A stretch of 38,845 nt of DNA from a virus. Below are positions 160 through 38,845 of the stretch, in pieces. Both the position numbers and the translations under genes were made by a program. Position 1 is the stretch's first letter. Each line of letters opens with the position of its first letter. Under the pieces are notes generated by a model that had not been told where the DNA came from, ran no database searches, and worked only from the letters and a program-made list of their open reading frames with translations. The stretch covers positions 1 to 38,845 of IMG/VR virus record IMGVR_UViG_3300025141_015523, one strand, 5' to 3'.

Positions 160-465
160 TCATTCTCCTTTGTTAAAAAATTTCTCTGAATTTATTGCTT
201 TATCGCAAATAAACAAATCATACATTGGCTTTCCACACCCTGCTTTATGGTACTTTGCTCCCCATTCTTCCAATTGGCGACAAACAAGATCATTCCAATC
301 AATTCCTGATCCGGAACCTCTTGCCGTCCAGTAAGTTATTTCATGACCTTCGTCATAAAGTTGATTGATCTTTTCGATGTTTTCTTTGATTGGAACTGAT
401 TTTGTATAATCCCTATCTTCTGGGGTTATACAAATAGTCTCATCGATGTCAACTATGATCTTCAT
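160..465 (-). CDS. Small HAD-superfamily phosphatase-like protein
   Basis: A 101-residue protein starting MKIIVDIDETI. The N-terminal DIDET matches HAD motif I (two Asp, the nucleophile and acid/base), YWTARGS fits motif II with its Thr, a Lys in AGCGKPMYD fits motif III, and DLFICDKAIN fits the Asp-containing motif IV. Compact HAD proteins of this size are phosphatases or nucleotidases; the substrate cannot be told from sequence. I chose the ATG at 463-465 because AGAGGAGG lies just upstream and because the HAD motif begins there; a longer frame to 504 adds a segment with no homologous feel. Its ATG overlaps the stop of the dehydrogenase gene (ATGA), so it belongs to the same operon as the two lysine-type enzymes. 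Confidence 0.8.
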   Translation of the reverse strand: MKIIVDIDETICITPEDRDYTKSVPIKENIEKINQLYDEGHEITYWTARGSGSGIDWNDLVCRQLEEWGAKYHKAGCGKPMYDLFICDKAINSEKFFNKGE

Positions 466-1538
466 TTTTCCTCCTCTGAAAATAGCTTTCCATACTCTGT
501 CCATTGTAACTTATCAAATGGAATGTCTTCTTGGCTAACAAATCCTCTCTCGGGGAGATGACCCATATCCACCAATTGTAATGTAGAGACCATCGCGGCG
601 GCTGTTGTCCACGCAATCGCTTTATAGGGCATTCCATTTATAACTTTTGGTCCGTATTCTTTTACGAACTCAACGGTTTGAATTTTATCATTCTTTTCTC
701 CTGTAACTGATGCATATACTACAACTTTGTCTTGTTCACAAGGCGGGAGAGCATTTTGAAGTATCTTCATAAGTTCCCACCTCTTGTCCTTCATTTTCAA
801 ATCATCCAAGAGGAACTTCATCATCTTACAGTGACCGGGGTAGCGAATAGATTTGTAGTCTAGGTTCTTGACTTTATCTTTATAAGTCTCCGCCATTGTT
901 CCTAAGCCGCCGGAAGTTGTGAAGGCTTCGTATTCAGTTCCATCAACTCTAAGTGTTTCCAACATAGTCATTGGAGAAACCTTTTGAACCTTGCCTTCCT
1001 TGATTATGTCACACTCTTCGATGTATTCGTTTACCAAGCCCTCTATAGACCAGTTAACAGCGTAACCAAGCTTTCCAGATGGATTCTGTGGTAATGCTCC
1101 AACTCTCATCTTGATCGTATCGATGGTCTTGAAACCTTGCACCAAATGAGACGCTACAATACCGATAAAGCCGGGAGCCAATCCACATTGAGGAATCATA
1201 ACTCCTTTTGCGTTCTTGGAACGGTCTTTGATGTAGCTTGTCATCTGTGTATCTTCAGTTGCGTCTAGGTAGTGAATACCTCTCTCAAATGCTTCCTCGA
1301 CAACAAATCTTGTAAGGTGATAAGGTAAGCATGAAATAACTGCATCGCATTCATCTAGAGAAGCTGATAAAAAGTCTTTGTCTGCTACATCACCTCTTTT
1401 AATCGGAATTGTTGATTTAACTCTTTGAGTATCAATTCCTACAACTTCATAGCCATACAGCCTCAGCATCAGCGCAACTAGACTGCCTATGACGCCCATC
1501 CCGACAACTGCGACTTTTTTAATGCCATCTTCTTTCAT
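462..1538 (-). CDS. Lysine 6-dehydrogenase / saccharopine dehydrogenase-like oxidoreductase
   Basis: A 358-residue NAD(P)-dependent enzyme. A Rossmann GxGxxG (G13-M-G-V-I-G18) opens the protein; GLAPGF, SIEGLVNEY, EAFTTSGGLGT and YKSIRYPGH are blocks I recall from lysine 6-dehydrogenase and the related saccharopine-dehydrogenase C-terminal fold. Length (about 360-385 in LysDH, 440 or more in many saccharopine dehydrogenases) favours the LysDH type, which oxidises lysine directly to 2-aminoadipate semialdehyde with release of ammonia. The gene directly upstream encodes an ALDH7-type aldehyde dehydrogenase, which would take that semialdehyde. The two are 6 bp apart. Family placement is confident; LysDH versus saccharopine dehydrogenase specificity is inference from remembered motifs and context. 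Confidence 0.8.
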   Translation of the reverse strand: MKEDGIKKVAVVGMGVIGSLVALMLRLYGYEVVGIDTQRVKSTIPIKRGDVADKDFLSASLDECDAVISCLPYHLTRFVVEEAFERGIHYLDATEDTQMTSYIKDRSKNAKGVMIPQCGLAPGFIGIVASHLVQGFKTIDTIKMRVGALPQNPSGKLGYAVNWSIEGLVNEYIEECDIIKEGKVQKVSPMTMLETLRVDGTEYEAFTTSGGLGTMAETYKDKVKNLDYKSIRYPGHCKMMKFLLDDLKMKDKRWELMKILQNALPPCEQDKVVVYASVTGEKNDKIQTVEFVKEYGPKVINGMPYKAIAWTTAAAMVSTLQLVDMGHLPERGFVSQEDIPFDKLQWTEYGKLFSEEEK

Positions 1539-1544
1539 AAGTTT

Positions 1545-2894
1545 TTAATCTCCAAATTGGATTCCTTGGGCGAGGGGGAGCTTGTCTGACCAATTTATTG
1601 TGTTGGTCTGTCTTCGCATGTAAGCTTTCCAAGAATCAGATCCTGATTCCCTTCCTCCTCCAGTATCCTTTTCTCCACCGAAAGCTCCGCCAATCTCTGC
1701 ACCAGAAGTTCCAATATTAACATTTGCTATCCCACAATCAGATCCCACAGCAGACAAAAATTGTTCTGCTTTGCGGAGACTGTCTGTGAATATGGAGCTT
1801 GAAAGACCTTGAGAGACATCATTATTTATTTCGATAGCTTCTTCCAAAGTTTCATATTCCAATATATATAGTATCGGAGCAAATGTTTCTTCTTTGACGA
1901 TGGCTGTTTGTGAGGGCATCTTAACTAGGGCCGGCTTTACATACCTGCCTCTTACTTTGCCACCGTAAAGAACCTCCCCACCCTGAAACTCTTCTGCAAT
2001 TTTCAACGCTAATTCATATTTCTCAACTGCCTTGTGACTAATTAAGGGGCCCATCAGCGTTTTTTCATACATCGGATCATCGATCACAACCTGATCATAA
2101 GCTTTTAAAAGACGGCATATCAATTCTTCTGAAACATCTTTATGAACAATGAGCCTTCTGGTGGTTGTGCATCTTTGACCGTTTGTTCCAACGGCGCCAA
2201 AAAGAATGGCGCGAGTTGCTAAATCTAAATCAGCATCTTCAGCTACAATGACAGCGTTGTTTCCCCCAAGTTCTAAAAGGCTCCTTCCTAGGCGCCGGGC
2301 GACAACTTCTGATACACTCCTCCCAGCTTTGGTAGATCCTGTGAAAGAGATGAGGGGAATTCTCCTATCCCTCGCCATTTGATGTCCTGACCCCTTATCA
2401 CCCAAAACTAGATTGAAAACACCTTCGTGCCCCGTTTCCTTTGAGATATCTTCGCAAATTGCGTGGATATATTTCGCTGTTTCTTTTGCTAATTCACTTG
2501 GCTTCCAAATAACTGTATTTCCACAAACAGCCGCAATAGCCGCATTCCATGCCCATACAGCGCCCGGGAAGTTAAAAGCCGTTATAACGCCTATAGCGCC
2601 CAGTGGGTGCCATTGTTCAGTCATCTTGTGCCTATACCTCTCCGAGGCTATTGTAAGCCCGTAGAGTTGACGAGAGAGCCCCACAGCGAAGTCGCAGATG
2701 TCTATCATCTCCTGAACTTCTCCGAGGCTTTCTTGATAGATCTTTCCAACTTCTGAGGTTATTATTTGCGCTAATTCTTCTTTCTTTTCTCGGAGCTTGT
2801 TTCCAAGTTGCCTAATGACTTCTCCACGCTTTGGAGCGGGAACTTCTTTCCAAGTTTTGAAAGTTTCTAGTGCTACTTTTACTTGTTCATGCAT
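1545..2894 (-). CDS. ALDH7-family aldehyde dehydrogenase (2-aminoadipate semialdehyde dehydrogenase type)
   Basis: A 449-residue aldehyde dehydrogenase. Visible hallmarks are TAFNFP (catalytic-site Asn 108), FTGSTKAG (cofactor loop), LLELGGNNA (general base Glu 208) and GQRCTTTRR (nucleophile Cys 242). The C-terminal GGAFGGEKDTGGGRESGSD and the TNTINWSDKLPLAQGI end are characteristic of the ALDH7/antiquitin family, which oxidises 2-aminoadipate semialdehyde to 2-aminoadipate. Compared with ALDH7A1 (about 510 residues) it starts late: roughly 45-60 N-terminal residues are absent, and the family block APKRGE appears already at residue 20. The start overlaps the stop of the preceding small gene (TAATG) and has only a weak ribosome-binding site, so translation probably depends on coupling. 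Confidence 0.92.
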   Translation of the reverse strand: MHEQVKVALETFKTWKEVPAPKRGEVIRQLGNKLREKKEELAQIITSEVGKIYQESLGEVQEMIDICDFAVGLSRQLYGLTIASERYRHKMTEQWHPLGAIGVITAFNFPGAVWAWNAAIAAVCGNTVIWKPSELAKETAKYIHAICEDISKETGHEGVFNLVLGDKGSGHQMARDRRIPLISFTGSTKAGRSVSEVVARRLGRSLLELGGNNAVIVAEDADLDLATRAILFGAVGTNGQRCTTTRRLIVHKDVSEELICRLLKAYDQVVIDDPMYEKTLMGPLISHKAVEKYELALKIAEEFQGGEVLYGGKVRGRYVKPALVKMPSQTAIVKEETFAPILYILEYETLEEAIEINNDVSQGLSSSIFTDSLRKAEQFLSAVGSDCGIANVNIGTSGAEIGGAFGGEKDTGGGRESGSDSWKAYMRRQTNTINWSDKLPLAQGIQFGD

Positions 2895-3602: not shown

Positions 3603-4712
3603 CTATTCTTCTTCCTTCTCTTCGTAGTATTTGCTCGCTTCCCCTGTGCGAGATTCAAACCTCATGATAACCTCTTCATCCATCACGTCAAGAACAGCTT
3701 GCCTAAACTCTGGATCTTGAAGCTTCTCAATCCATTGTTTACCCTGAAACTTGTATTCTTTACCCTTTGAATTCAAAGTATACCATGCCCCTGCACTTGT
3801 CAAGGCATCCGAACCTTTTATCGCATCAAGCCAACTTTCCTCATCTTGGATTCCAATTTTATCCCCAGCCCACAAGATTTTATAGTTACATCTTCGCCCA
3901 GCCGTTCCAAAGCGTGATTTCTCAAGCTTTGCTTTAACCTCTGAACCGATTCTGTAACCTTTATCATCTTCAACAAAAGAAGCTTTCGCTTTGCGACCCG
4001 TAAGCCATATACGCAAAGAATATGCGTAATGCATAGCTTTTCCGCCGGGAGTGAACCATGGAGTTGTCATTGCCTCTGACATGCTCATTGTAATGTTCGT
4101 CTTTAGTTGGTTTAGAACCAAAAACGTACATTGAGCGTTTGCCAAAGGAACTGTGAGTTTCGCCATCCCTTTTGAGAGGATACGAGGCTTCACAGCCATC
4201 GAAGACTGTGGGTTGAAATCTCCTTCCAAGTCTTTTTTACTTGGAGTGAGTGCTAAACTATCCCAAATAAAGAGAAGTTTATTCCCAGATCCCAACAGTT
4301 CTTCAATATATTCCAAAACTTCCTCAACAGAGGTCGCCTGAACGTAAAGGAACCTGTCCAAATCAATTCCTATTTTTTGCAGGAATTCAGGATCAATTGC
4401 TGATTCAGAATCAAAGTAAACCACGTCAATGTCCATTCTTTGAGCATTGGCGGCAACTTGCGCTGCCATATAGGATTTACCGGTAGACTCTAAGCCTGCA
4501 ATCTCAGTTATTTTTCCTACCGGAATTCCGCCAAGCTTTCCTCTACAAACTATAGAGTCTAGCCAGCGGGCTCCGGTTGGAATCCATTCTTTTACTTCAG
4601 TTGGATTATCCGAAGAAAGATCATGGGCGACTTCGATCCCTGCTTTTTTGTTCAGCAGTTTTCTCATTTCCGCCATATTGAGCTTTCCAGCTTTTGCCTT
4701 CTTTACGGCCAT
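3603..4712 (-). CDS. uvsX: UvsX/RecA-family recombinase
   Basis: A 369-residue RecA-like ATPase. Walker A is GLESTGKS at residues 73-80; the Walker B-like strand KLLFIWDSLAL and the segment TFLVLNQLKT with its Gln follow in RecA order. The protein catalyses homologous pairing and strand exchange on gp32-coated single strands, supporting recombination-dependent replication and repair. I start at ATG 4710-4712 (MAVKKAKAGK); the only extension uses a TTG two codons upstream. The start is 2 bases beyond the gp32 stop, so the pair is coupled. It lies in the operon behind the consensus promoter at 5735-5763 and ends in a hairpin. Confidence 0.93.
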   Translation of the reverse strand: MAVKKAKAGKLNMAEMRKLLNKKAGIEVAHDLSSDNPTEVKEWIPTGARWLDSIVCRGKLGGIPVGKITEIAGLESTGKSYMAAQVAANAQRMDIDVVYFDSESAIDPEFLQKIGIDLDRFLYVQATSVEEVLEYIEELLGSGNKLLFIWDSLALTPSKKDLEGDFNPQSSMAVKPRILSKGMAKLTVPLANAQCTFLVLNQLKTNITMSMSEAMTTPWFTPGGKAMHYAYSLRIWLTGRKAKASFVEDDKGYRIGSEVKAKLEKSRFGTAGRRCNYKILWAGDKIGIQDEESWLDAIKGSDALTSAGAWYTLNSKGKEYKFQGKQWIEKLQDPEFRQAVLDVMDEEVIMRFESRTGEASKYYEEKEEE

Positions 4713-4714
4713 GA

Positions 4715-5449
4715 TCAACTACCAAGAAGTTCGGAAAAAGCTTTGGTGACTTTATCGTCGCCTGTAGCGGCGTACTTATTGATTTCGTCTTTTTCTTCTC
4801 CACCTTGCATAAATATATCAAGAAGTTCTTGAACTTGCGCAGTAGTTTTGCGTTCAAAGAGTCCATCAAATTCAGGAATCTCTCCTAGAAGTTCCTTGCA
4901 ATCCTTATCTCCCTTTGCACAAGCGGGAGAAGTTTTTCGCTTTGGAGTTAACTTTGTTGATGGATATAGTGCTCCTGCTTTCTTCCCATAATTAAGTACC
5001 AGATCTGTTCCTTCGTCCACATCAGTAACATCGCCATAATCCGGATTCAAGACAAGCTGAAGCAGTTGCTCATATACTGTTTTTGAATATCCCCACACAC
5101 GAACTCCCAATCCTTCTTCGCCTCTTACAAGAACTGGAGAAAAGAATCTCTGCTTTGGGAACAGCTTTTTAGCCATTTCAATAGAGTCTGGTGTTCCCTC
5201 CTTGTATAAGGAAGAAGCGAAATCCAGAACAGGACTATCTTCGCCAAAGTTTCTCTTCGGACAAAGAACAGGGCCTTTATCCAAATTATAATAAAACCAA
5301 AACTCCTTGAAAGGATCTCCGTCAGCGGTGGGCAAAATACGGATCACTTGATCTCCATCCTGTGGTTTCCAAAATAAATCCTTTTTTCCGCCGCCTTTAC
5401 TTTTGAGAGTGTTATATTTCTCTCTCATCTTTTTCATATCAATACCCAT
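4715..5449 (-). CDS. 32: Single-stranded DNA-binding protein, T4 gp32 family
   Basis: A 244-residue protein with the gp32 layout: a basic N-terminus (KKMREKYNTLKSKGGGKKDLFWKP), a core with DGDQVIRILPTADGDPFKEFW and a CPKRNFG segment, then an acidic, flexible C-terminus. The KxGGGKKD-FWKP opening and RILP motif are typical of gp32 homologues. It binds single-stranded DNA at replication forks and recruits partner proteins through its acidic tail. Cysteines are present (VLCPKR, SPACAKGDKDCKE), but I cannot assign the T4 zinc ligands one to one. It is smaller than T4 gp32 (301). It sits between the WYL_2-like gene and uvsX, 1 base after the former. Confidence 0.88.
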   Translation of the reverse strand: MGIDMKKMREKYNTLKSKGGGKKDLFWKPQDGDQVIRILPTADGDPFKEFWFYYNLDKGPVLCPKRNFGEDSPVLDFASSLYKEGTPDSIEMAKKLFPKQRFFSPVLVRGEEGLGVRVWGYSKTVYEQLLQLVLNPDYGDVTDVDEGTDLVLNYGKKAGALYPSTKLTPKRKTSPACAKGDKDCKELLGEIPEFDGLFERKTTAQVQELLDIFMQGGEEKDEINKYAATGDDKVTKAFSELLGS

Positions 5450-5734: not shown

Positions 5735-5763
5735 ATTATAGCATACTATTTTCGGCTTGTCAA
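5735..5763 (-). promoter_or_regulatory. Consensus sigma70 promoter for the WYL_2-gp32-uvsX operon
   Basis: On the minus strand TTGACA (5758-5763) is followed by exactly 17 bases and TATAAT (5735-5740): a perfect -35, spacing and -10. It faces the gene starting at 5705, leaving a leader of about 20-25 bases that contains the ribosome-binding site. The -35 overlaps the stop codon of the tubulin-like gene. A host RNA polymerase should use it without phage factors, fitting early expression. Confidence 0.9.
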
Positions 5764-6581
5764 GTAAAAAGTTGCCCTTGATGAAAATGAGTTCTTTTTA
5801 TGACTATACCGTAATCATAGTCTGCATTATTTGAATAAACCTGATAACTTGAACTATTTTTTTCTTTAAAGTTGTCTTTTATTATCTTCACCAACTCATA
5901 ATCCTTTTCAAGTTTTTCCTGATGTATGGATATATAATACATGTTTTCAATTGGATTGTCAAGAGAAAAATACATTTTTTCTTCATTTATTTTGTAATCG
6001 TATGATCCTATTGATAATATTCGACAGTGATCTTTATGATCGATCTTTGTTTTTGATACTGGTTTAGTATTATCGAATACGTTAATCATATGAAGTGAAT
6101 AACTTATTACTTCGTTTATTTTATCATATTTGTTGAGGAAGGTTAAGTCCGGAATTGTCTCTTCTAGTGTTTCATTAGAAATCAATATTATGTCCTTAAA
6201 CATCCCCGATCTCGCATAATCTTGCAAAGCATTAAATATAAGTTTATGCTGAAGAGCATATGTCTCGAGCATTTCAGATTGATCCGGAAGGATCAGAACA
6301 ATTCTAATTTCAGTATTTTTGAAATGATGGAGCAATCTTAGACTGGCGCCGGTTATTAAACCAGAAGATGCGCATATAAAGATTGTTTCATCATGTTTTG
6401 GTTTAAATCGATATTTTGGAAACGTTTCTTCATATTTTTGATGTTCTTTTTGCTCTTTTAAGAGTCTAAAATTTTTATGATTCCTTTTTTCAGAATCGAA
6501 GCAATAAACTTCATATTGAGAATATTTGTCAAACTTCTCTGCAATATTACAGCCGCATTGGCCTAGGCCGATAATGTTCAT
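5760..6581 (-). CDS. Divergent tubulin/FtsZ-like protein
   Basis: A 273-residue protein. The N-terminal MNIIGLGQCGCNIAEKF resembles the first nucleotide-binding loop of tubulin/FtsZ (GxGxxGxN; eukaryotic tubulin has GQCGNQ). Further on, ETIFICASSGLITGASLRLLHHF occupies the place of the GGGTGTG phosphate loop and its helix, then RIVLILPDQSE, NALQDYARSG and KDIILISNETLEE mirror the FtsZ order (VTLPF, the Arg/Ala helix, IVIPN). The tubulin signature itself is degenerate, so GTPase activity and polymerisation are doubtful. The C-terminal third (residues 180-273) is unassigned. The start overlaps the polymerase stop (ATGA), so the two are coupled. Superfamily assignment is inference from local motifs only. 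Confidence 0.6.
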   Translation of the reverse strand: MNIIGLGQCGCNIAEKFDKYSQYEVYCFDSEKRNHKNFRLLKEQKEHQKYEETFPKYRFKPKHDETIFICASSGLITGASLRLLHHFKNTEIRIVLILPDQSEMLETYALQHKLIFNALQDYARSGMFKDIILISNETLEETIPDLTFLNKYDKINEVISYSLHMINVFDNTKPVSKTKIDHKDHCRILSIGSYDYKINEEKMYFSLDNPIENMYYISIHQEKLEKDYELVKIIKDNFKEKNSSSYQVYSNNADYDYGIVIKRTHFHQGQLFT

Positions 6582-7744
6582 AACTTCATCTCTTTCATTT
6601 CGCCGAAGTTCTTTCCTCCGGAAATATTAACTTTAAATTTCCCCAATTCTGTATTAGAGAACTCTTCTAGCAATCCCTCGACCACTCCCTTATCAGATAA
6701 GTGAAAGTCGAGCACCAGACTATCATGGATAGTAAAAGCCACATTTGATTTTCTTCCCTTCAATAATTTCCATATTTTAATTGCTTGTCTCAAGAACAAA
6801 TCAGAAGTTGTAGATTGAATAAGATAATTCAAAGCATAATGTTCTTCGCATTCAATCTTTCTCCCAAACGGAGTTATAATATATTTTTCATCATAATTAT
6901 AGTATTTTTGCAAAATTTTAGTTCTTTCGAAGATCTTTTCCAGTTTTTTATCATTTTTCTTCGGATCATAGAGCCAACTAAAAACTTTCTGCTTTACTTT
7001 ATCTCTCTCAAACTTGTTTCCATAAACTTCTTCGCCAATCCAATTGTGAATATCTTCTTCGGGCTGATCAATATCCAAAAGTGCCAAAAAAGTCCTCAAT
7101 TCGGCCGCATTATAATCAAGCTCAACGAAACAGTGTTTATATGGCTCTATAATGCCCCTACATTCCTTTTTTAAGTTCAAAATAGGGAAAGACATAGGCT
7201 TGATGCTTAAACGTCCTGTAATCGTCTTATAGGCATCATATTGAACGAATGAAGATGCACGTTGGATCTTTTTGAAGACATCTTTGTGTCGAAGTGAATA
7301 TTTGATATCGTCCAAATTGATTTTCAAAGGCTTTTCGGCGATCTCGGAACACATTTTATGAAGATCGCACATAAAGTCATAATCATGTGGTTTTTCGAGA
7401 TTTTCGAAAACATGTTGAGAAATATGATTTTTATAGAACAAAAATTTAAAAATGAATTTTTCTGGAATTAACTGTTTGATATTAAATTTTGAAGTGTCGG
7501 CGCCGACTATCTGATAAGATTTAATAAAAGATTTGATCTTTTTACTGATTTTTGACCAATCTTCATAAATTGTATCTGGACATGATTCATCCAAAGAAAG
7601 GCCATTTGACCAGACATACGCATAATCAGCATTGTGATCTTCCAAGATCGCTTGATAATCCCAAGTTTTGTCGCAACCATCCGGAAGGAAGTTAAATATT
7701 TGATTATTATGGAAGAATTGGTTTTCAAAAATTTGAAAGAACAT
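6578..7744 (-). CDS. Short family-A DNA polymerase (polymerase domain)
   Basis: A 388-residue protein with the family-A polymerase core: TGRLS (176-180), motif A LDYNAAELR with Asp 210, motif B RDKVKQKVFSWLY (from Arg 247), the conserved NYLIQSTTSDLF segment, and motif C IHDS with Asp 341 (usual form HDE; the Glu is replaced by Ser). Both metal-binding aspartates are present. It lacks a recognisable 3'-5' exonuclease; the first 160 residues are unassigned. Typical PolA polymerases are much longer, so this is a minimal or specialised enzyme. T4-like phages normally replicate with a family-B polymerase. A GAGAGG ribosome-binding site and a consensus promoter (7784-7812) precede it. Confidence 0.85.
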   Translation of the reverse strand: MFFQIFENQFFHNNQIFNFLPDGCDKTWDYQAILEDHNADYAYVWSNGLSLDESCPDTIYEDWSKISKKIKSFIKSYQIVGADTSKFNIKQLIPEKFIFKFLFYKNHISQHVFENLEKPHDYDFMCDLHKMCSEIAEKPLKINLDDIKYSLRHKDVFKKIQRASSFVQYDAYKTITGRLSIKPMSFPILNLKKECRGIIEPYKHCFVELDYNAAELRTFLALLDIDQPEEDIHNWIGEEVYGNKFERDKVKQKVFSWLYDPKKNDKKLEKIFERTKILQKYYNYDEKYIITPFGRKIECEEHYALNYLIQSTTSDLFLRQAIKIWKLLKGRKSNVAFTIHDSLVLDFHLSDKGVVEGLLEEFSNTELGKFKVNISGGKNFGEMKEMKL

Positions 7745-7759: not shown

Positions 7760-9052
7760 TTAGCAATATTTCATCTTGTTGAAAGTATAGCGCACCAAGA
7801 GCTTTTTGTCAAGTCCTTTTTTGATCTTATTCGAAAGATCGAGTAAAATCTGTTTTACATCAGGACGATTGCCGTATGCAGAATTTAATATTTGAGCGTA
7901 TTTTATCAGATATTTGTTAAAGCTATTTCTGTACAATTCCTCTAATTGCCCTTCCGAATATATCTCTCTATCAAATGACTGAGCAGTTGATACTTTGTTC
8001 ACCCTGTAGCTTTTAGAGCAAAAAAACGTTTTTTGTTCGCTTTTATAATATAAAGGTGCTGTTTCCAGCAAATTCAGGTATGATTTAAAAATAGCCCTAT
8101 AAAACAGTTCCATTTCTTCTTCAGTGCCTTCAGCTAATTCAAAATTATTTTCAAAAAACTTTTCTTTCGATATTCCGCTTATCTCTGTTTTGCTAGCATC
8201 TAAGTTAAGATCCATCGCAAACCTCCATGGAACATTTGAATCATAACGAAGCCCATTAATCAGGAAATATCCGGCCACGCGGTTATACATAGGATATTGA
8301 TAAAAAGCGGCAAATTTTGCTGCATTATCATCATATGCAACCTGTTCAACATTCTCTATTTCGAACATCAAGCCGGAATTTAACATAGAATTTTCCCCGC
8401 CCTTGACATATTCATTAAAGAAGGCGCTTTTATCAATTTTGTGCAACGTAAACAATTTGAATATTAAATCCAAATAGGAAACAAAATCCATGGCTGTATC
8501 TTTTATGTTGGTGGTATCATCGAATACCTCCTTCATATATATCTCATTAATCATATTGCCTACAGACGTTATATATGATTCTTCTATTTCTTCTCTCGGG
8601 CCGGCACCTTTATCGATTTTGAATACTTCCATAAACTGGCTAAGTTGCTGCTTATCCAAAGCAAATTCGAGCTTAACCATTTCATAAAATTTCAAATATA
8701 GTTGATATGTATATTTGTTTAAAAATATTTCCTCATCAATTAAAAACTTATCGTCAACTTCAACTAAGCTGGTTCTTTTCGGCAAAATTGCTCGGCCGAA
8801 AGTGTCAACTTTTCCATAATAAGATCCTTTGTCAAGAAAATCAAAACCCCTAGGAATCCAGACCGGGGTGCCCATTGCTTTAAATAACGCCCTACTTCGA
8901 AAAGCTGTTTTCAAAGAAGAATCATTACTATTCTCCAAAATTGCAATATCTCCGGTAATTGTGAAGTTATCATCATCCTCAAAACCGGCAAATGGGCTTT
9001 GAGAGTTTCGATCCTTCTTAATAGGAAATGTGTCTGGATTTAACTTTTCCAC
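7760..9052 (-). CDS. Hypothetical protein, probable structural/tail neighbour
   Basis: A 430-residue protein with no recognised family. It is mainly helical, rich in Phe, Tyr and Asn, with no signal peptide or clear membrane segment; one visible stretch is GPREEIEESYITSVGNMINEI. I place the start at GTG 9050-9052 because TTGGAG lies 6 bases before it; a TTG four codons upstream would put the ribosome-binding site inside the gene. It follows the 880-residue baseplate-type gene by 14 bases, so it probably belongs to the tail transcription unit. The promoter for the polymerase gene lies within its last codons. Confidence 0.65.
   Translation of the reverse strand: MEKLNPDTFPIKKDRNSQSPFAGFEDDDNFTITGDIAILENSNDSSLKTAFRSRALFKAMGTPVWIPRGFDFLDKGSYYGKVDTFGRAILPKRTSLVEVDDKFLIDEEIFLNKYTYQLYLKFYEMVKLEFALDKQQLSQFMEVFKIDKGAGPREEIEESYITSVGNMINEIYMKEVFDDTTNIKDTAMDFVSYLDLIFKLFTLHKIDKSAFFNEYVKGGENSMLNSGLMFEIENVEQVAYDDNAAKFAAFYQYPMYNRVAGYFLINGLRYDSNVPWRFAMDLNLDASKTEISGISKEKFFENNFELAEGTEEEMELFYRAIFKSYLNLLETAPLYYKSEQKTFFCSKSYRVNKVSTAQSFDREIYSEGQLEELYRNSFNKYLIKYAQILNSAYGNRPDVKQILLDLSNKIKKGLDKKLLVRYTFNKMKYC
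7784..7812 (-). promoter_or_regulatory. Near-consensus sigma70 promoter for polymerase and tubulin-like genes
   Basis: On the minus strand TTGACA (7807-7812), a 17-base spacer and TATACT (7784-7789) lie inside the 3' end of the 430-residue gene and point at the polymerase gene starting at 7744, giving a leader of about 33 bases. Both bases flanking the -10 (GCTATACT) match the other early promoter (GCTATAAT at 5735). Confidence 0.85.
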
Positions 9053-30413: not shown

Positions 30414-31233
30414 TATTATTAATCTCATGTATCAATTCTTGAACTTTTAAAATCTGCAAAATCATCCCCTGATCGATATTCTTATCTTTGTTTGTTGCGA
30501 TAGCTTCTTCGATCAGTTTTAATTTTTCTTTTGTCTCAACACATTCTTCTAGTTTTCGAGCTTTTTTAAGTTCTTTATTAAGACGTCCGATCTCTTCATC
30601 TAGATATATCATAATCCCCGACTTATTATCCGAAAAAGAAAATAAATAATTTTTTATTAAATTTCTCTGCTCTTTTAAAAGAGTATCAGCATATTTTTCA
30701 TTAAATTTCTTAAGAAAAATATTAAAAGAGAGGTTATCAACTGGCTGCATTCTAATTTCTTGATGATTTTCCGAAATCATGGACTTGATAACGTTATTTT
30801 CCAAAAGAACTTTATTTTTCACAGAAACATTCTGGCTAAAAATTTGGGATATGGTTGCTAAATTTTTATAATTTGGCAAAAAATGACCAAATGCTTGCTT
30901 TCCCAGTTTTTGGTTAATAAGCTTGATAAGAGAGGTCTGCTCATTAAACAATTCTTTTTCATCAACTTCAGAATGTCTTTTATATTTTGACTCTACTAAT
31001 AATTTCTCCGCATTTCTGGGGGAAGCATTTTTTGTTTCATAAATTGCCCTAAAAGAATCCAAGTCTTTTTGAAGATTTGTGCCCTTTTTAAAAAACTTAA
31101 CCAATATTCCCTCTATGAGTTTCTTTTTTTCTGACCTTTTATTAACAATCGCCAATGTAAGTTCTCGAATTAAAGACTCATAAAGAAAAGCGGTATTTCT
31201 TTTCTTATTATGCTTGAGTTTACTTGTTTTCAT
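30403..31233 (-). CDS. Hypothetical helical protein downstream of portal
   Basis: A 276-residue, Lys-rich, mostly helical protein beginning MKTSKLKHNKKRNTAFLYES and containing LIRELTLAIVNKRSEKKKLI. The NKKRNTAFLYE-x-LIREL block is one I associate with a conserved gene next to portal in marine T4-like phages, without known function. Its start overlaps the portal 3' end by 14 bases. No signal, membrane or catalytic motif. Candidate roles are prohead initiation or core assembly, by position only. Confidence 0.65.
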   Translation of the reverse strand: MKTSKLKHNKKRNTAFLYESLIRELTLAIVNKRSEKKKLIEGILVKFFKKGTNLQKDLDSFRAIYETKNASPRNAEKLLVESKYKRHSEVDEKELFNEQTSLIKLINQKLGKQAFGHFLPNYKNLATISQIFSQNVSVKNKVLLENNVIKSMISENHQEIRMQPVDNLSFNIFLKKFNEKYADTLLKEQRNLIKNYLFSFSDNKSGIMIYLDEEIGRLNKELKKARKLEECVETKEKLKLIEEAIATNKDKNIDQGMILQILKVQELIHEINNNEA

Positions 31234-33136
31234 CTTTTTTCTCCAATTGGGAAATCAAACCATTCACCTCTTCATTTGAATTTAGAATTTTTATTTCTTC
31301 TTTTGAGTAATTAGCCTCGAGATTTTCATAAATGCCTCTTCCAACACGACTTAGTGCGTTTATATCTGGATATATATTTTCTCGAGATGAACTAGCCAGA
31401 CGATCTGAATATTGTTTTTTCATGGATTTTTTTCTTGGGGCCAGATGGCGTCGCTTATCTAGTTCTTTTGGAACTGGCTTATACCATTTACCCTTGGACT
31501 TGGGTGTTGTTGTTACAACTTCATCTCTTTTTCCCGGAGTGGCCAAAAGCATATCTTCTCCTCCGGCTTCTTCTCCACCTAGGTCTTCCCCGCCTAGGTC
31601 TTCCCCGCCTAGGTCTTCTCCGCCTAGGTCTTCTCCACCCAGATCCATTCCGGCATCTTCTCCGCCGGCGTCGAGAGCTTCTTCTTCTGCCGCGGCCTCT
31701 TCAGCGGCCTTTTCGAGATCAGCAGTAAAAATCTTATCAAAATACATTTCCCTTTGATTCCTCAAAGCATCTGCTTCCGAAAGATTAAAAATATTTTCAC
31801 TAATCCACCTTTTACTAAAGAATCCTTCCGTTGCTCCTCCTGCAATCTCGAATTTAGTTCTCCAATATTCTAATTCTTGAAGCTCTGCGATTCTTGACGG
31901 ATTATTCAAGCGCAATTTGAAAGAAATTAAATCTTTGCTCTTAAACCCAAGAGTATAAAGATGAATAATCCCTATTTTTTCTAATTCGGAAACAATAGAT
32001 CTTTGTAATCTCGTAATTGTTCTTGCAAATCGAATATCTTTTTGAGCTAATGCTGTTTTATCTTCTGCTTCTTCGCCGGCAATTAAATAAGCAGCAGGAA
32101 CTTTAAGGGCTGCGAAAAGTTTTTCCCTTAAATACTTTACATCATCAATATCTCCAGTATAGGCACCTCCGGCCAGAGAAGTAACATCAGATCCAACGCC
32201 GTTTCTAACTGGGAGAAAATAATCCTCTTCAACACTCAGGGGATTATATCGTAAATCAACACGACCTGTGTCTGGATCTATAACTTGATTTCGCTTCATT
32301 TGTGTCATAACACGCTGAACATACTGTTCTACATCTTGTGGAGGTATATTCCCAACCTCAATTTTAAAAACTCTTCTCTCGGGAGAACGAACAATACGAT
32401 AAGACATCATAGCGTCTTCAATAAGCGTCAATTGCCGAAAAATACGTCTGGCGCCTTCTAAAACCGAAGTTCCATAGGGAGAAAACTTATCATTTCCCAG
32501 AATACGGAAATGAGCCATTTGCCAATTTTCAAAAGTTAAGCCACCGGAATTCCATTGGTACTGAATATAATTTGGATTTGTCGGATCTTGCCCTTCCATT
32601 CTTTCTATTTCTTGCGTGGGGAGGCCGATGGCATTTATTATTCCTTTTCCTTCTTCGATTTCCAAATAAAGGAAAAAGTCACCCTGTTTACACATTGTTC
32701 GACACCAGCCAAACAAATTAAACTCAATATTTAAAATATTTTGATAAAGATCCTCCAAAATTTGTTTAATTTCATAATTTTTACAATCAATTCTTAATAA
32801 TTCATTAATAAATGTCGAGGTTGTCATCTCATCGGCATAAATATCTAAAGCAGAGGATATTTCAGGCATATATTCCATTTGATCAAAATCAGCATACCTC
32901 TCTGCTCGACCTTGTGCGGCAACATAATTGTAAGTTAAATTAGAGAAGGGATCATAAACAGATTTCTTAAATTGTTGTCCCGATGCTGAACGAAATTTAT
33001 ACTTGTCTAACTGCCTTCTTCTTTCTCGGCGGGGAGTTTGAGCTTGGTAGTTCACAATTGGTCCGGAAAAAAGCTTTGTCAATCTTCGAAAAAGACTCGA
33101 ATCCGGATTTCTATTTCCCTTTTTGTCATTATCCAT
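31220..33136 (-). CDS. 20: Portal protein, gp20-like
   Basis: A 638-residue protein. QGRAERYADFDQMEYMPEIS followed by SALDIYADE is the signature opening of gp20 in T4-like phages; later FSPYGTSVLEGARRIFRQL and FRLLNNPS-type segments follow in order (here KSKDLISFKLRLNNPSRIAE). It forms the dodecameric ring at the packaging vertex. The C-terminal part carries an acidic region with five tandem GGEDL units encoded by 15-bp repeats (31571-31645), which accounts for part of the extra length over T4 gp20 (524). It starts 5 bases after the terminase stop. Confidence 0.95.
   Translation of the reverse strand: MDNDKKGNRNPDSSLFRRLTKLFSGPIVNYQAQTPRRERRRQLDKYKFRSASGQQFKKSVYDPFSNLTYNYVAAQGRAERYADFDQMEYMPEISSALDIYADEMTTSTFINELLRIDCKNYEIKQILEDLYQNILNIEFNLFGWCRTMCKQGDFFLYLEIEEGKGIINAIGLPTQEIERMEGQDPTNPNYIQYQWNSGGLTFENWQMAHFRILGNDKFSPYGTSVLEGARRIFRQLTLIEDAMMSYRIVRSPERRVFKIEVGNIPPQDVEQYVQRVMTQMKRNQVIDPDTGRVDLRYNPLSVEEDYFLPVRNGVGSDVTSLAGGAYTGDIDDVKYLREKLFAALKVPAAYLIAGEEAEDKTALAQKDIRFARTITRLQRSIVSELEKIGIIHLYTLGFKSKDLISFKLRLNNPSRIAELQELEYWRTKFEIAGGATEGFFSKRWISENIFNLSEADALRNQREMYFDKIFTADLEKAAEEAAAEEEALDAGGEDAGMDLGGEDLGGEDLGGEDLGGEDLGGEEAGGEDMLLATPGKRDEVVTTTPKSKGKWYKPVPKELDKRRHLAPRKKSMKKQYSDRLASSSRENIYPDINALSRVGRGIYENLEANYSKEEIKILNSNEEVNGLISQLEKKDENK
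31571..31645 (-). repeat. Five 15-bp tandem repeats in the portal gene
   Basis: Units of 15 bp (plus-strand forms TTCTCCACCTAGGTC, TTCCCCGCCTAGGTC twice, TTCTCCGCCTAGGTC, TTCTCCACCCAGATC) encode DLGGE repeats in frame. The two central copies are identical, suggesting recent slippage; copy number probably varies among relatives. Confidence 0.9.
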
Positions 33137-35671: not shown

Positions 35672-36105
35672 TTTGTAACCTCTTTGATTGCAAATGCAAT
35701 TCCAATTGTTGAGCCGACCCCGATGGCAACCCCAATTGTGAACCAAAGAATTGTTAAATCTCTCTTTGGCTTAAAAACCATTTTCTGAAGTCTTGTGAGT
35801 TCTTCGTTCTTGAGTTTTATAATCTCGTCCGATCTTTTTTGTAAAGCTGACATATCAACCTTGAGAAGATTATACTTCATATCGTGCTGGATTTTAAGTT
35901 TTTCTTTTTGTTGGGAGAGTTTTAACTTGAGTTCATCTTTGAGCTTTTTTGTTTTTGCTAAGATTTCAGCGATTGCTTTGGCGTCTAGAAGTGTTCCGGG
36001 GAAAGGTGCTTTTTGATCTTTTTTGAGGGTTATTGATTTTCCTGCCGCGAATGCAGTTGTTTGAAAGATCATCAAAAAACATAGAATAAGCGGTAAGATT
36101 TTCAT
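35668..36105 (-). CDS. Exported coiled-coil protein with C-terminal membrane anchor, spanin-like
   Basis: A 145-residue protein. Residues 1-20 (MKILPLILCFLMIFQTTAFA) form a clear signal peptide with cleavage after AFA. The mature part contains KAPFPGTLLDAKAIAEILAK, a block common in phage membrane proteins of the spanin/lysis type, then a long coiled coil (KLKDELKLKLSQQKEKLKIQ ...) and a C-terminal hydrophobic segment LTILWFTIGVAIGVGSTIGI. The topology (exported coiled coil tethered by a C-terminal membrane helix) fits a unimolecular or inner-membrane spanin bridging the envelope at lysis. The start ATG overlaps the upstream stop (ATGA). Lysis role is inference. Confidence 0.65.
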   Translation of the reverse strand: MKILPLILCFLMIFQTTAFAAGKSITLKKDQKAPFPGTLLDAKAIAEILAKTKKLKDELKLKLSQQKEKLKIQHDMKYNLLKVDMSALQKRSDEIIKLKNEELTRLQKMVFKPKRDLTILWFTIGVAIGVGSTIGIAFAIKEVTK

Positions 36106-36578
36106 TTCAAATCTAATTTCAATGCGTTCACAGATTCCGTAGCCCACATTATCGGACCGCTCAAGTCCGATAGGTCGGGCTTATCCAACGTGCCTTCTTC
36201 ATCATATTTTTCTTGATATTCCTCTAATCTTCTTGCTATCTTGCGTAATGCCCAATAAATTTCATCAAGAGATCGTGGGGAGAGATTTTCACCACTGTTT
36301 ATAGTAGCCAGATTATTACTAAGGACATCGGAAGGACCTAGAATTTCATATGCACGGTCGAAATCATATTCGTCTTCAGGGTTAATATCTTTATTAAGCT
36401 CTTCCACCACATTCTCAAGCTCTGTGTGTAACTTTTTAATCTTTTCTGGATCGTGATCATGGTACCCCATAAATTTTTTGATCTTTTTCCCTGCACTTTT
36501 AAAAAACCCCTCCTCAGACAAGGTATTTTCAATCTCTTCTTGGATAATTCGCTTTAGTTGTTTTTTTGTAATCTTCAT
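36102..36578 (-). CDS. Cassette protein with N-terminal KITKKQLKRIIQEE module
   Basis: A 158-residue acidic protein. The first 16 residues, MKITKKQLKRIIQEEI, match those of neighbouring cassette genes; the remainder (a basic patch FFKSAGKKIKKFMGYHDHD, then acidic helices) is unrelated to them. No catalytic motif or membrane segment. The ribosome-binding site is AGGG at GGATAAGAAAA-ATG. The shared leader plus unrelated bodies suggests the leader is a targeting tag; it contains Ile-Gln-Glu, a possible prohead-protease site. The gene stop overlaps the start of the signal-peptide gene (ATGA). Confidence 0.7.
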   Translation of the reverse strand: MKITKKQLKRIIQEEIENTLSEEGFFKSAGKKIKKFMGYHDHDPEKIKKLHTELENVVEELNKDINPEDEYDFDRAYEILGPSDVLSNNLATINSGENLSPRSLDEIYWALRKIARRLEEYQEKYDEEGTLDKPDLSDLSGPIMWATESVNALKLDLK

Positions 36579-36589
36579 TTTTCTTATCC

Positions 36590-37801
36590 CTATCTTAGCG
36601 CTAGGGCTATTTCCCTTCGGATGGCTTCTTCGAGTTCTTCACGAGGGCTTTCAAATAGTTTCAATAATTTATGAACAGCCCACTTAGCGGGGTCTATTTT
36701 AAAAACCAGTTCTTGTAAAGGATCGGTAAAATTCCAATTGACAACATTGCCGGCAGCTTCATCCACTTTCTTTTCAAATCCGCGCAGGTCATCTGCTACA
36801 TCTTTGGCATAGGCTTCAATTTCTTCGGATGACTGAAACTCCGGAAGAGGCTGTATTCTGTGGCCATTGCGGTCCGGCTTAAAGGAGGCTGGAATTTCAA
36901 ACTTTTTTTGAAAGCCATGTTCCGCTATAAACATGGCAAGGTTAGAAAGTTCTGTTTCTAACTTTTCCAATATTTGGTCGGCGCCTCCGCCTTCTTCACC
37001 TAGAGCCCTTCCAATCTCTTCTTGGATGATTCGCTTTAGTTGTTTTTTGGTAATTTTCCTTTCTCTTATTCCTTTAGGTATACCAAGACGTGGCCACTTT
37101 TCTCCTGTCTTGCGCAGTTCGGGCTCCTTGGAAAGATCTAGGCTCTTGCCCGGCAGCTGCCTCGGATCTCCGTGTTTACTCTTATATTGTTGCAACATAA
37201 GGTCGGAATGCCCGTACCCGGGGAGCTCCCCCTCATAGGGGCCGTCACGCTTGACAGCGCGGCGATCATTCCAACCTTCGTCGGCGAATTTTTCAAGATC
37301 TTCATATTGTTCGATTGTTAGATTCCCAGCCTCATAATCCTCTAGAAATTTATCCGACCATTTGCGGTGATAGCTATCCCAGCTTGTTTCAGCCTCCGGT
37401 TCTGACTCTGTCCCTGACCGAAGACTCGTTCTCTCTGGTCCGCGACGTTGGTGCGACTTGTGGGTTGCTACATTAAAACCAAGTTCTGCAAAAAGATTTG
37501 CAAAAACAGCAAAGATAATTTCACCAAAGTCTTCATTCAAGAGCGTTGATTGCTCTCCGAGCGGCTGTTCTTCTCCCATTTCCGCTGTTTTTTTCTTTAC
37601 CATAGCATCTGCTTCTTCGAAGCTAATACCAAGCACGTCTGCAAGTTTTTGCGTTTCATTTCTAATATCTTCTGGATCCGGATCTGCAGGGTTGTCGGCT
37701 CCTTCAAAAGGCACATAGTGCCCTTTCATCCCTCCTTCGAACATGGCCCTTCCAATCTCTTCTTGAATAATTCGCTTAAGCTGCTTTTTGGTAATCTTCA
37801 T
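36590..37801 (-). CDS. Two-part cassette protein with N-terminal and internal KITKKQ modules
   Basis: A 403-residue protein from ATG 37799-37801 (GAAGG site 8 bases upstream; seven more codons are open upstream). It begins MKITKKQLKRIIQEEIGRAM and repeats RKITKKQLKRIIQEEIGRAL at residues 248-267. The first body (residues 20-247) is acidic, with SFEEADAMVKKKTAEMG and a Tyr/Arg/Asp-rich middle; the second body (268-403) is helical, ending EELEEAIRREIALALR. The internal copy is preceded by the same AAGGAATAA leader found before neighbouring start codons, so the ORF looks like a fusion of two cassette genes, or contains a base error. No known family. Confidence 0.7.
   Translation of the reverse strand: MKITKKQLKRIIQEEIGRAMFEGGMKGHYVPFEGADNPADPDPEDIRNETQKLADVLGISFEEADAMVKKKTAEMGEEQPLGEQSTLLNEDFGEIIFAVFANLFAELGFNVATHKSHQRRGPERTSLRSGTESEPEAETSWDSYHRKWSDKFLEDYEAGNLTIEQYEDLEKFADEGWNDRRAVKRDGPYEGELPGYGHSDLMLQQYKSKHGDPRQLPGKSLDLSKEPELRKTGEKWPRLGIPKGIRERKITKKQLKRIIQEEIGRALGEEGGGADQILEKLETELSNLAMFIAEHGFQKKFEIPASFKPDRNGHRIQPLPEFQSSEEIEAYAKDVADDLRGFEKKVDEAAGNVVNWNFTDPLQELVFKIDPAKWAVHKLLKLFESPREELEEAIRREIALALR
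37000..37075 (-). repeat. Internal copy of the cassette leader (gene-start-like sequence inside an ORF)
   Basis: Minus-strand AAAGGAATAAGAGAAAGGAA resembles the real leader AAGGAATAAAAGAATG found at 38656 and 37801, followed by codons for KITKKQLKRIIQEEIGRA. Compared with the copy at 37801 the 18 codons after the start differ at seven synonymous positions and no replacement position. Where the other copies have ATG this one has AAGG. Confidence 0.8.
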
Positions 37802-37818
37802 TCTTTTATTCCTTCTAA

Positions 37819-38328
37819 TCAATTATTTGTAAATATATGAAACAGCATATACCCGGCAGATCCCAATAACAAGATACTCCCTAGTGCCGCTGCTGTAGTG
37901 GCGGCTGCTCCTAGACCTAATGCGCCAAGTTGTCCAGCGGCTCCCATATATCCCATTGCGCCGGCGAAACCTACGGCTGGATGCCATCCTTTTGTCTTAT
38001 CTTGGCTCGGATAATTTGATTGATAATCTGGATCATCCAGTTTTTGAGAATGTGATCTTCTCATTTTTCCGAGTTTTCCTGCCGCTGTGGGAGTAAAAAC
38101 TTCTTCCAAAGCACCTTTTTCCGTTGCTTGCTTCTTTAGAAAATCTACAACCTTATCTTTCTGATCTTGCGGTAAAGAAAACATAATTTCTGAAAATCGT
38201 TTTGCTACTTCTTCTTCGTCATTCGTATCAGCAAATTTTTGAGCCTCTTCTGCGGCTTTTTCAACTTCTGCCTGCTTTTCAAGCTCTTCTTTAATAATTC
38301 TTTTTAAGGTTTCTTTTGTAATTTTCAT
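37819..38328 (-). CDS. Cassette protein with leader module and C-terminal membrane segments
   Basis: A 169-residue protein. Leader MKITKETLKRIIKEELEKQA continues into an acidic helix (VEKAAEEAQKFADTNDEEEV). Residues about 117-164 are Gly/Ala-rich and hydrophobic (FAGAMGYMGAAGQLGALGLG, AAATTAAALGSILLLGSAGY), enough for two membrane segments. LDDPDYQSNYPSQDKTKGWH separates the two parts. A protein that is soluble at one end and membrane-inserting at the other would suit delivery into or action at a membrane, but function is unknown. It starts 16 bases after the preceding cassette gene; the ribosome-binding site is AGAGGA. Confidence 0.65.
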   Translation of the reverse strand: MKITKETLKRIIKEELEKQAEVEKAAEEAQKFADTNDEEEVAKRFSEIMFSLPQDQKDKVVDFLKKQATEKGALEEVFTPTAAGKLGKMRRSHSQKLDDPDYQSNYPSQDKTKGWHPAVGFAGAMGYMGAAGQLGALGLGAAATTAAALGSILLLGSAGYMLFHIFTNN

Positions 38329-38344
38329 TTATTTGATCCTCTTT

Positions 38345-38656
38345 TTAGCATGCTCGACCATAGTCTTGTTCATGAAAATCAAGAGCCCTTTGTGCTCCTT
38401 TTTCGTCCATTCCATGAACTTTCATTAAAGCTTGTATGATTACTTCGCAAGGTTCTCCTCCATGGTCGGAAATCGTTTGCTCAACCGTTGTTTTTTCACG
38501 CACATACGGATCCTGTGGAGCAGGAGGGGGCGGTTCTTGGAACCTAGAAGCGACCGGTCCTCTTCCAGCTTCCCATCGAGTAGGATCGGATTCTTTGATC
38601 ATTTTTTCAATCTCTTCTTTAATAATCTTGCTCAACAGCTTTTTTGTAATCTTCAT
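38345..38656 (-). CDS. Cassette protein, 103 residues, with leader module
   Basis: Starts MKITKKLLSKIIKEEIEKMI at ATG 38654-38656, with AAGGA 7 bases upstream (nine more open codons upstream are unlikely to be used). After the leader comes a Pro-rich stretch (FQEPPPPAPQDPYVRE) and a C-terminal helical part, TISDHGGEPCEVIIQALMKV, HGMDEKGAQRALDFHEQDYG. No domain recognised. The upstream gene's TAA lies inside the AAGGAATAAAAGAATG junction, an arrangement repeated before other cassette genes. Confidence 0.65.
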   Translation of the reverse strand: MKITKKLLSKIIKEEIEKMIKESDPTRWEAGRGPVASRFQEPPPPAPQDPYVREKTTVEQTISDHGGEPCEVIIQALMKVHGMDEKGAQRALDFHEQDYGRAC

Positions 38657-38660
38657 TCTT

Positions 38661-38845
38661 TTATTCCTTGTGGTCAATTCCAAATTCTTCTGCTAGTTTT
38701 TTGGACAAAGCGTCCGGGTCATCTTTATGTTTTTTCATAAGACGTTTTATATCTTTCTTATAATTAGTATTTAGATCATCATTTTGCTTTTTGTGTTTAT
38801 CTTCAACTTCTTTTATAATCTTATTAAACTTTTCAACTTCTTTTT
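38661..38845 (-). CDS. Partial charged coiled-coil protein, N-terminus outside window
   Basis: The frame is open from the window edge to TAA 38661-38663 and encodes about 60 residues, KEVEKFNKIIKEVEDKHKKQ through LAEEFGIDHKE. It is a highly charged Lys/Glu/Asp helix with no recognised motif. Its start, and so whether it also bears the cassette leader, cannot be seen. The stop codon lies 4 bases before the next ATG. Confidence 0.6.
   Translation of the reverse strand, partial: KEVEKFNKIIKEVEDKHKKQNDDLNTNYKKDIKRLMKKHKDDPDALSKKLAEEFGIDHKE

Follow-up and report, generated by a model that had tools for sequence, protein, structure and literature searches.

The uncultured phage DNA analysed here encodes a reduced member of the tubulin/FtsZ superfamily next to a family-A DNA polymerase, and the same pair of genes recurs across a clade of related phages. 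The window, that is, the whole stretch of DNA under study, is an IMG/VR virus record of 38,845 bases in total. The gene, here called TUB-A (Table 1), had been pointed out in a sequence-only reading, whose coordinates, 5760-6581, proved correct; the strand, which was missing there, is minus, and the plus strand of the same bases has no usable frame, with stops throughout. The start codon of TUB-A and the stop codon of the polymerase share four bases, ATGA, at 6578-6581, so that the translational coupling to a polymerase proposed in that reading is borne out. The peptide blocks it had quoted were all located in the protein: GLGQCGCNIAEKF at residues 5-17, SSGLITGAS at 72-80, LILPDQSE at 96-103 and DIILISNETLEE at 130-141.

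Table 1. Positions of TUB-A, its motifs and its neighbours in the window, and of the TUB-B gene on a related contig.
Feature	Position	Strand	Basis or remark
UvsX/RecA-like recombinase	3603..4718	minus	Pfam/PHROG searches
gp32-like single-strand DNA-binding protein (SSB)	4715..5449	minus	Pfam/PHROG searches
WYL_2-like neighbour, 84 aa	5451..5705	minus	sub-threshold, E 0.00068
Perfect sigma-70-type promoter-like site, TTGACA-17-TATAAT	5735..5763	minus	0.02 expected by chance in the window
TUB-A, tubulin/FtsZ-superfamily gene, 273 aa	5760..6581 (stop counted in)	minus	ORF, relatives, predicted fold
Loop replacing T7 and helix H8, residues 171-187	6021..6071	minus	window KIDHKD; NxDxxD unconserved family-wide
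Core helix H7, residues 151-170, with N156, H164, N167	6072..6131	minus	N156 position is Asn in 93%
N136, T6 position, in register with the Asn of FtsZ IPN	6174..6176	minus	Asn in 91%
Family signature QDYARS, residues 120-125, end of helix H5	6207..6224	minus	Q120 and R124 invariant, n=153
T4-equivalent phosphate loop, residues 71-80, ASSGLITGAS	6342..6371	minus	GGSGxISGAS in the family; an eroded GGGTG[TS]G
T1 glycine loop, residues 5-12, GLGQCGCN	6546..6569	minus	G5 98%, G7 99%, G10 95%, C11 93% of 153
Family-A DNA polymerase (PolA), 388 aa, without exonuclease domain	6578..7744	minus	Pfam DNA_pol_A, 4.3e-13
Sigma-70-type promoter-like site before PolA-TUB-A, TTGACA-17-TATACT	7784..7812	minus	11/12
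TUB-B	L338:1027-2121, i.e. G052:103404-104459	minus	family loci L339-L418

First, both fold and homology place TUB-A in the tubulin/FtsZ superfamily, an assignment that is almost certain. An AlphaFold2 model built from a 34-sequence alignment reached a pLDDT of 90.5 and a pTM of 0.89; an earlier model, based on 6 close sequences, had a pLDDT of only 47.9 and was discarded. The predicted fold has both domains of tubulin/FtsZ, namely the Rossmann-like nucleotide domain and the C-terminal domain, with the core helix H7, and structural matches found with VIA-align cover residues 1-273. The first description had seen a likeness to the nucleotide-binding half of tubulin/FtsZ; the likeness holds and the restriction to that half does not, since the C-terminal domain of the predicted model matches as well. 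In a Foldseek search of the PDB, the 50 matches listed were all FtsZ or CetZ, with E about 1e-11. The top neighbour in VIA-align was CetZ (Z 23.9, rmsd 2.8, 249 residues), and FtsZ, TubZ and eukaryotic tubulin scored Z 21.7, 21.6 and 20.9, respectively. The best viral structural match is an unclassified 'FtsZ' from an uncultured phage.

At the sequence level, the relationship appears when profiles are compared. The TUB-A profile aligned with a combined profile of FtsZ, PhuZ and TUB-B (a second family described below) with hhalign E-values, which are single-comparison values, of 2.6e-7 (local) and 4.4e-8 (global) over 262 columns. PhuZ alone gave a weak match (E 2e-4), the best with any single-family profile, and FtsZ alone gave a non-significant one (E 0.2). 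Reversed profiles scored 0.18-0.68 and six unrelated families 0.045-0.95, the Rossmann dehydrogenase being the one at 0.045; all controls with reversed or unrelated-family profiles were at 0.026 or worse, and when a Rossmann dehydrogenase was compared as a single sequence, the GxGxxG that it has in common with TUB-A brought the value to 0.012. No family of Pfam or PHROG captures TUB-A: the window protein scores 13 bits against a gathering score of 33 bits for PF00091, a cut-off that PhuZ of phiKZ, at 31.8 bits, also fails to reach. Pfam Tubulin was the commonest sub-threshold Pfam match (11/34 members, best E 0.0055), the window protein had no match in PHROGs, where other members had scattered weak ones, and significant matches came neither from single-sequence searches nor from family-profile searches of PDB sequences, the latter giving chance matches only. 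NAD-binding families also appear weakly among the single-sequence Pfam matches, all of which are sub-threshold, and this would suit a different GxGxxG Rossmann protein, unrelated to tubulin, with a misleading T1 motif. Such a protein is hardly credible against a high-confidence two-domain model with Z 20-24 across about 250 residues and a profile alignment that spans T1, T4, T6 and H7 at E 4e-8. Thus, the fold comparison found tubulin topology along the entire length, with FtsZ and CetZ as neighbours, the sensitive profile search preferred FtsZ and phage tubulins to Rossmann dehydrogenase, and neither a fold lacking that topology nor a closer GxGxxG family emerged, so that the tubulin/FtsZ interpretation of the sequence-only reading stands.

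TUB-A is a real conserved gene, far above chance, and a clade-wide one with hundreds of members rather than a one-off. Five close relatives in IMG/VR share 77-81% identity with it, a later profile search reached relatives down to about 30% identity, and a third scan found relatives encoded on at least 587 IMG/VR stretches. The family alignment used here contains 153 non-identical full-length members with pairwise identity down to about 26%; their length is 264-314 aa, with a median of 280. The dN/dS of TUB-A against three relatives is 0.05-0.14, a rough estimate because several dS values exceed 1, and that of the adjacent polymerase is similar (0.09-0.12). Outside these uncultured viruses, tblastn with three family members against 50,697 GenBank phages gave zero matches, a pattern search of a bacterial and archaeal genome collection did not find the family at the sensitivity used, and no description of it was found in openly readable journal papers.

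The position of TUB-A relative to the polymerase is highly constant. In all 181 loci that have both genes (some contigs are counted repeatedly; distinct protein pairs number 130), TUB-A follows PolA on one strand. The gap is 50 bases or less in 128 of them, mostly an overlap of 1-16 bases, and the remaining 53 have an intervening gene or a longer gap. Among 80 loci selected by the polymerase, 77 hold TUB-A; in the remaining three, the sequence ends at the polymerase or shortly after it. The genes that intervene in many of these 53 are mostly small and varied, including YNKLVRDKIPEII proteins of about 100 aa, OMP decarboxylase-like proteins and others (L161, L250 and L257, among other loci). 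In the window, the WYL_2-like gene, the SSB and the UvsX/RecA recombinase all lie downstream of TUB-A. In eleven related records, four of them 147-193 kb long, neither a PolB nor a further PolA was found, and this PolA appears to be their sole polymerase of either type.

Promoter-like sites point to the same grouping. Sites matching 11 or 12 of 12 positions were found before PolA in 31/125 loci (shuffled, 0/625) and after TUB-A in 43/143 (shuffled, 6/715), and before TUB-A in merely 5/188. In the window, the -35 element of the perfect site after TUB-A overlaps the TUB-A stop codon, and two relatives share a site of the TTGACA-17-TATAAT type there. Since such sites flank the pair and are rare before TUB-A, PolA and TUB-A appear to be transcribed as a unit of early type and SSB/UvsX as a second one, as judged from these motifs. 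The distance matrices of PolA and TUB-A also correlate (r 0.70, a value reached in 0 of 999 permutations, with relatedness not removed); this would be expected of joint descent, and shared ancestry alone would suffice for it.

A replication-linked role is therefore probable for TUB-A, operon position alone being no proof. One unlikely form of such a role is a non-cytoskeletal replisome accessory, a monomer that binds the polymerase for processivity, loading or nucleotide sensing and forms no polymer. The obligate pairing and co-expression of TUB-A with a sole polymerase without exonuclease, its co-variation with that polymerase and the occasional nucleotide-metabolism gene among the inserted neighbours, such as OMP decarboxylase, all agree with this, whereas the homologous polymerase occurs in related phages that have no TUB-A. 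The nearest GenBank terminases (45%) are those of Flavobacterium immuto phages, Microcystis phage Mel-JY01 and a 484-kb uncultured phage, which have homologous polymerases and a PolA...SSB...RecA cluster, and a profile search of these phages did not find TUB-A. A protein of 428 aa, encoded close to the corresponding gene position in the Microcystis phage, was considered as a tubulin candidate and proved SAM-lyase-like. Since these relatives keep the polymerase cluster, TUB-A is either a lineage-specific gain in a replication cluster older than itself or has been lost in them, and since the cluster runs without it, a polymerase of this type does not, in general, need TUB-A.

What TUB-A may do at this position depends on which parts of the nucleotide site are kept. 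In tubulin and FtsZ, the Asn-type positions of T6 and H7 are base-contacting residues. TUB-A has both, N156 of H7 being in register with FtsZ AAND in the profile alignment, and its T1 loop, with the family consensus GLGxAGC, has the GxGxxG pattern. From T1 and these two asparagines, nucleotide binding is fairly likely. The GGGTGTG loop had been described as degenerate, and this is indeed the case: the window has SSGLITGAS, the family GGSGxISGAS, and the canonical T4 signature GGGTG[TS]G is absent from the window protein and from the 153-member family. The catalytic side is changed further. In the model, a loop joins H7 (151-170) directly to strand S7 (188-195), and helix H8 is absent. Position 181 is acidic in 46% of the family and position 184 in 69%. 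The close clade of the window has KIDHKD, with D181 in 6/6 and D or E at position 184; the aspartate spacing resembles that of FtsZ D209/D212, and the profile alignment sets these acidic positions one column off the FtsZ aspartates. With this spacing, some catalysis could survive in that clade. For the family, the loss of H8 and of the NxDxxD loop makes it somewhat more probable than its opposite that canonical GTP hydrolysis is lacking. TUB-A also has no C-terminal tail: the chain stops soon after the last strand (257-264), and pLDDT falls below 50 only at 271-273. Because the T4, T7-H8 and tail features are not found, TUB-A is not classed as a canonical GTPase tubulin, FtsZ or PhuZ. An inactive or regulatory derivative, as had been suggested from the sequence, would fit the loss of the catalytic T7-H8 segment.

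The residues that are invariant or nearly so in the 153 members, glycines aside, are Q22, Y23, L81, Q120, Y122, R124, S125, H164 and N167, and topology alone would put most of them on the face of the sheet opposite the nucleotide. They bear on whether TUB-A is a cytomotive phage tubulin, a polymer that forms with GTP and, like PhuZ, moves or centres replicating DNA or capsids, T7-H8 being replaced by a remodelled catalytic face. A complete predicted tubulin fold, conserved T1 and base-contacting Asn positions, and the D181 kept by the clade of the window all suit such a polymer, and Q22, Y23, Q120, Y122, R124, S125, H164 and N167 could, on topology, make a new subunit-facing site. It is nevertheless improbable, given the eroded T4, the loss of T7 NxDxxD and H8 from the family, and the missing tail, whose acidic knuckle was shown by mutation to be critical for polymerisation of 201phi2-1 PhuZ (PMC3678025). 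The remodelling of one polymer face with the other kept might also make TUB-A an anti-host decoy, whose nucleotide face, without the T7-H8 face, would cap or poison host FtsZ filaments and so block division. Some phages are known to inhibit FtsZ with unrelated small proteins, which is in favour of such a decoy. Pairing with a replicative polymerase is untypical of host-takeover genes, however, and the TUB-A sequence is very distant from that of FtsZ, so that a decoy is very unlikely.

The reading we prefer, at a probability of roughly one half, is that TUB-A is a tubulin that binds GTP, hydrolyses it poorly or not at all, and organises the replication factory of the phage. It would be produced along with PolA, the one DNA polymerase seen in the related phage records, and would bind guanine nucleotide via the T1 loop and the asparagines of T6 and H7. 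With H8 and the NxDxxD loop lost family-wide, GTP would not be hydrolysed through the usual inter-subunit mechanism, and TUB-A would then not form dynamic cytomotive filaments like those of PhuZ. Instead, it would most likely be a static or short assembly, or a nucleotide-switched adaptor, by which the factory is anchored or organised. The scaffold or positioning role itself is proposed tentatively, at somewhat less than even odds.

A second FtsZ-like family was found in related viruses. TUB-B, a protein of 364 aa (Pfam Tubulin, 3.1e-6), is encoded on a 166-kb contig that also encodes TUB-A, at a place in the genome away from the PolA-TUB-A pair. It keeps the canonical motifs GVGGGGGK, AGGGGGTGS and FDSKDL, and with these intact it looks like an active GTPase by its sequence. 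The family comprises 107 loci. It occurs in uncultured viral contigs of 94-281 kb, and tblastn of TUB-B against GenBank phages gave zero matches. Both genes occur in 6 large contigs, and most contigs carry one. An obligate pair of TUB-A and TUB-B was considered and rejected: TUB-B was unseen in 9/10 large contigs chosen by TUB-A, and TUB-A in 11/16 chosen by TUB-B, contigs that may be incomplete. A broader and doubtful idea is a 'replication tubulin', clade-wide and probably non-hydrolysing, that would be co-transcribed with the sole polymerase of the lineage and act on it, some members standing beside TUB-B as a two-tubulin system.

Some other features of the window were noted. A protein encoded at 36102-38683 (minus) has a short N-terminal segment like MKITKKQLKRIIQEEI that is common to several unrelated proteins, and the segment also occurs in small PolA-TUB-A inserts of relatives (L246, L256, L262 and L203); it is possibly a common targeting or packaging signal. 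At 462-2894 (minus), downstream of UvsX, a saccharopine-dehydrogenase-like protein and an aldehyde dehydrogenase, named by sequence reading, adjoin each other, as in relatives, and are possibly a phage-borne pair for amino-acid metabolism. The protein at the gp20-like portal position, 31220-33136 (minus), has an acidic repeat of the GGEDLGGEDLGGED type close to its C-terminus.

A distinct minimal tubulin is now placed in a widespread uncultured T4-like phage lineage, fixed beside the polymerase gene. The join with the polymerase suggests that, beyond the known jumbo phages too, a cytoskeleton-type protein is linked to the replication of phage DNA, and because of this fixed position tubulin-organised replication in ordinary-sized phages becomes a directly testable question. 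TUB-A is a natural experiment, a tubulin stripped of H8, catalytic loop and tail, yet under purifying selection, for which the canonical FtsZ-like TUB-B family offers a comparison.

Phage tubulins are known from jumbo phages and partition systems (PMC7824862, PMC13282480, PMC11724907), and an unspecified tubulin/FtsZ protein cluster has been reported in hot-spring viruses (PMC8597652). Among the characterised systems, archaeal CetZ (3zid, 4b45 and 4b46) has the same order of secondary structures as TUB-A, with 15% identity over 249 residues, but its chain is longer (342 residues in 3zid against 273), and in TUB-A H8 and the catalytic loop of T7 are missing and T4 is eroded. FtsZ provides top Foldseek matches for TUB-A, and the T1, T6 and H7 positions of the two align. 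However, the TUB-A family is shorter and without GGGTGTG and NxDxxD, its sequence similarity is below FtsZ level, the catalytic residues of FtsZ are not found, and its context suggests no division role. TubZ is part of the TubZRC partition system and has a tail. The TubZ proteins of Bacillus and Clostridium plasmid or phage partition resemble TUB-A in fold (Z 21.6), but solved TubZ chains have 381-414 residues. For PhuZ and phiKZ TubZ of the nucleus-forming jumbo phages, tblastn of the window TUB-A gave no match in GenBank phages, PhuZ phages included, and a query with phiKZ gp54 (chimallin), in a search without a working positive control, had no match in 6 contigs. TUB-A and these jumbo-phage proteins have in common a phage-encoded tubulin fold and a link to phage DNA. 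Unlike PhuZ, TUB-A is without the C-terminal tail and a conserved T7 Asp, and its gene is paired with that of a DNA polymerase, the phages concerned having T4-like modules.
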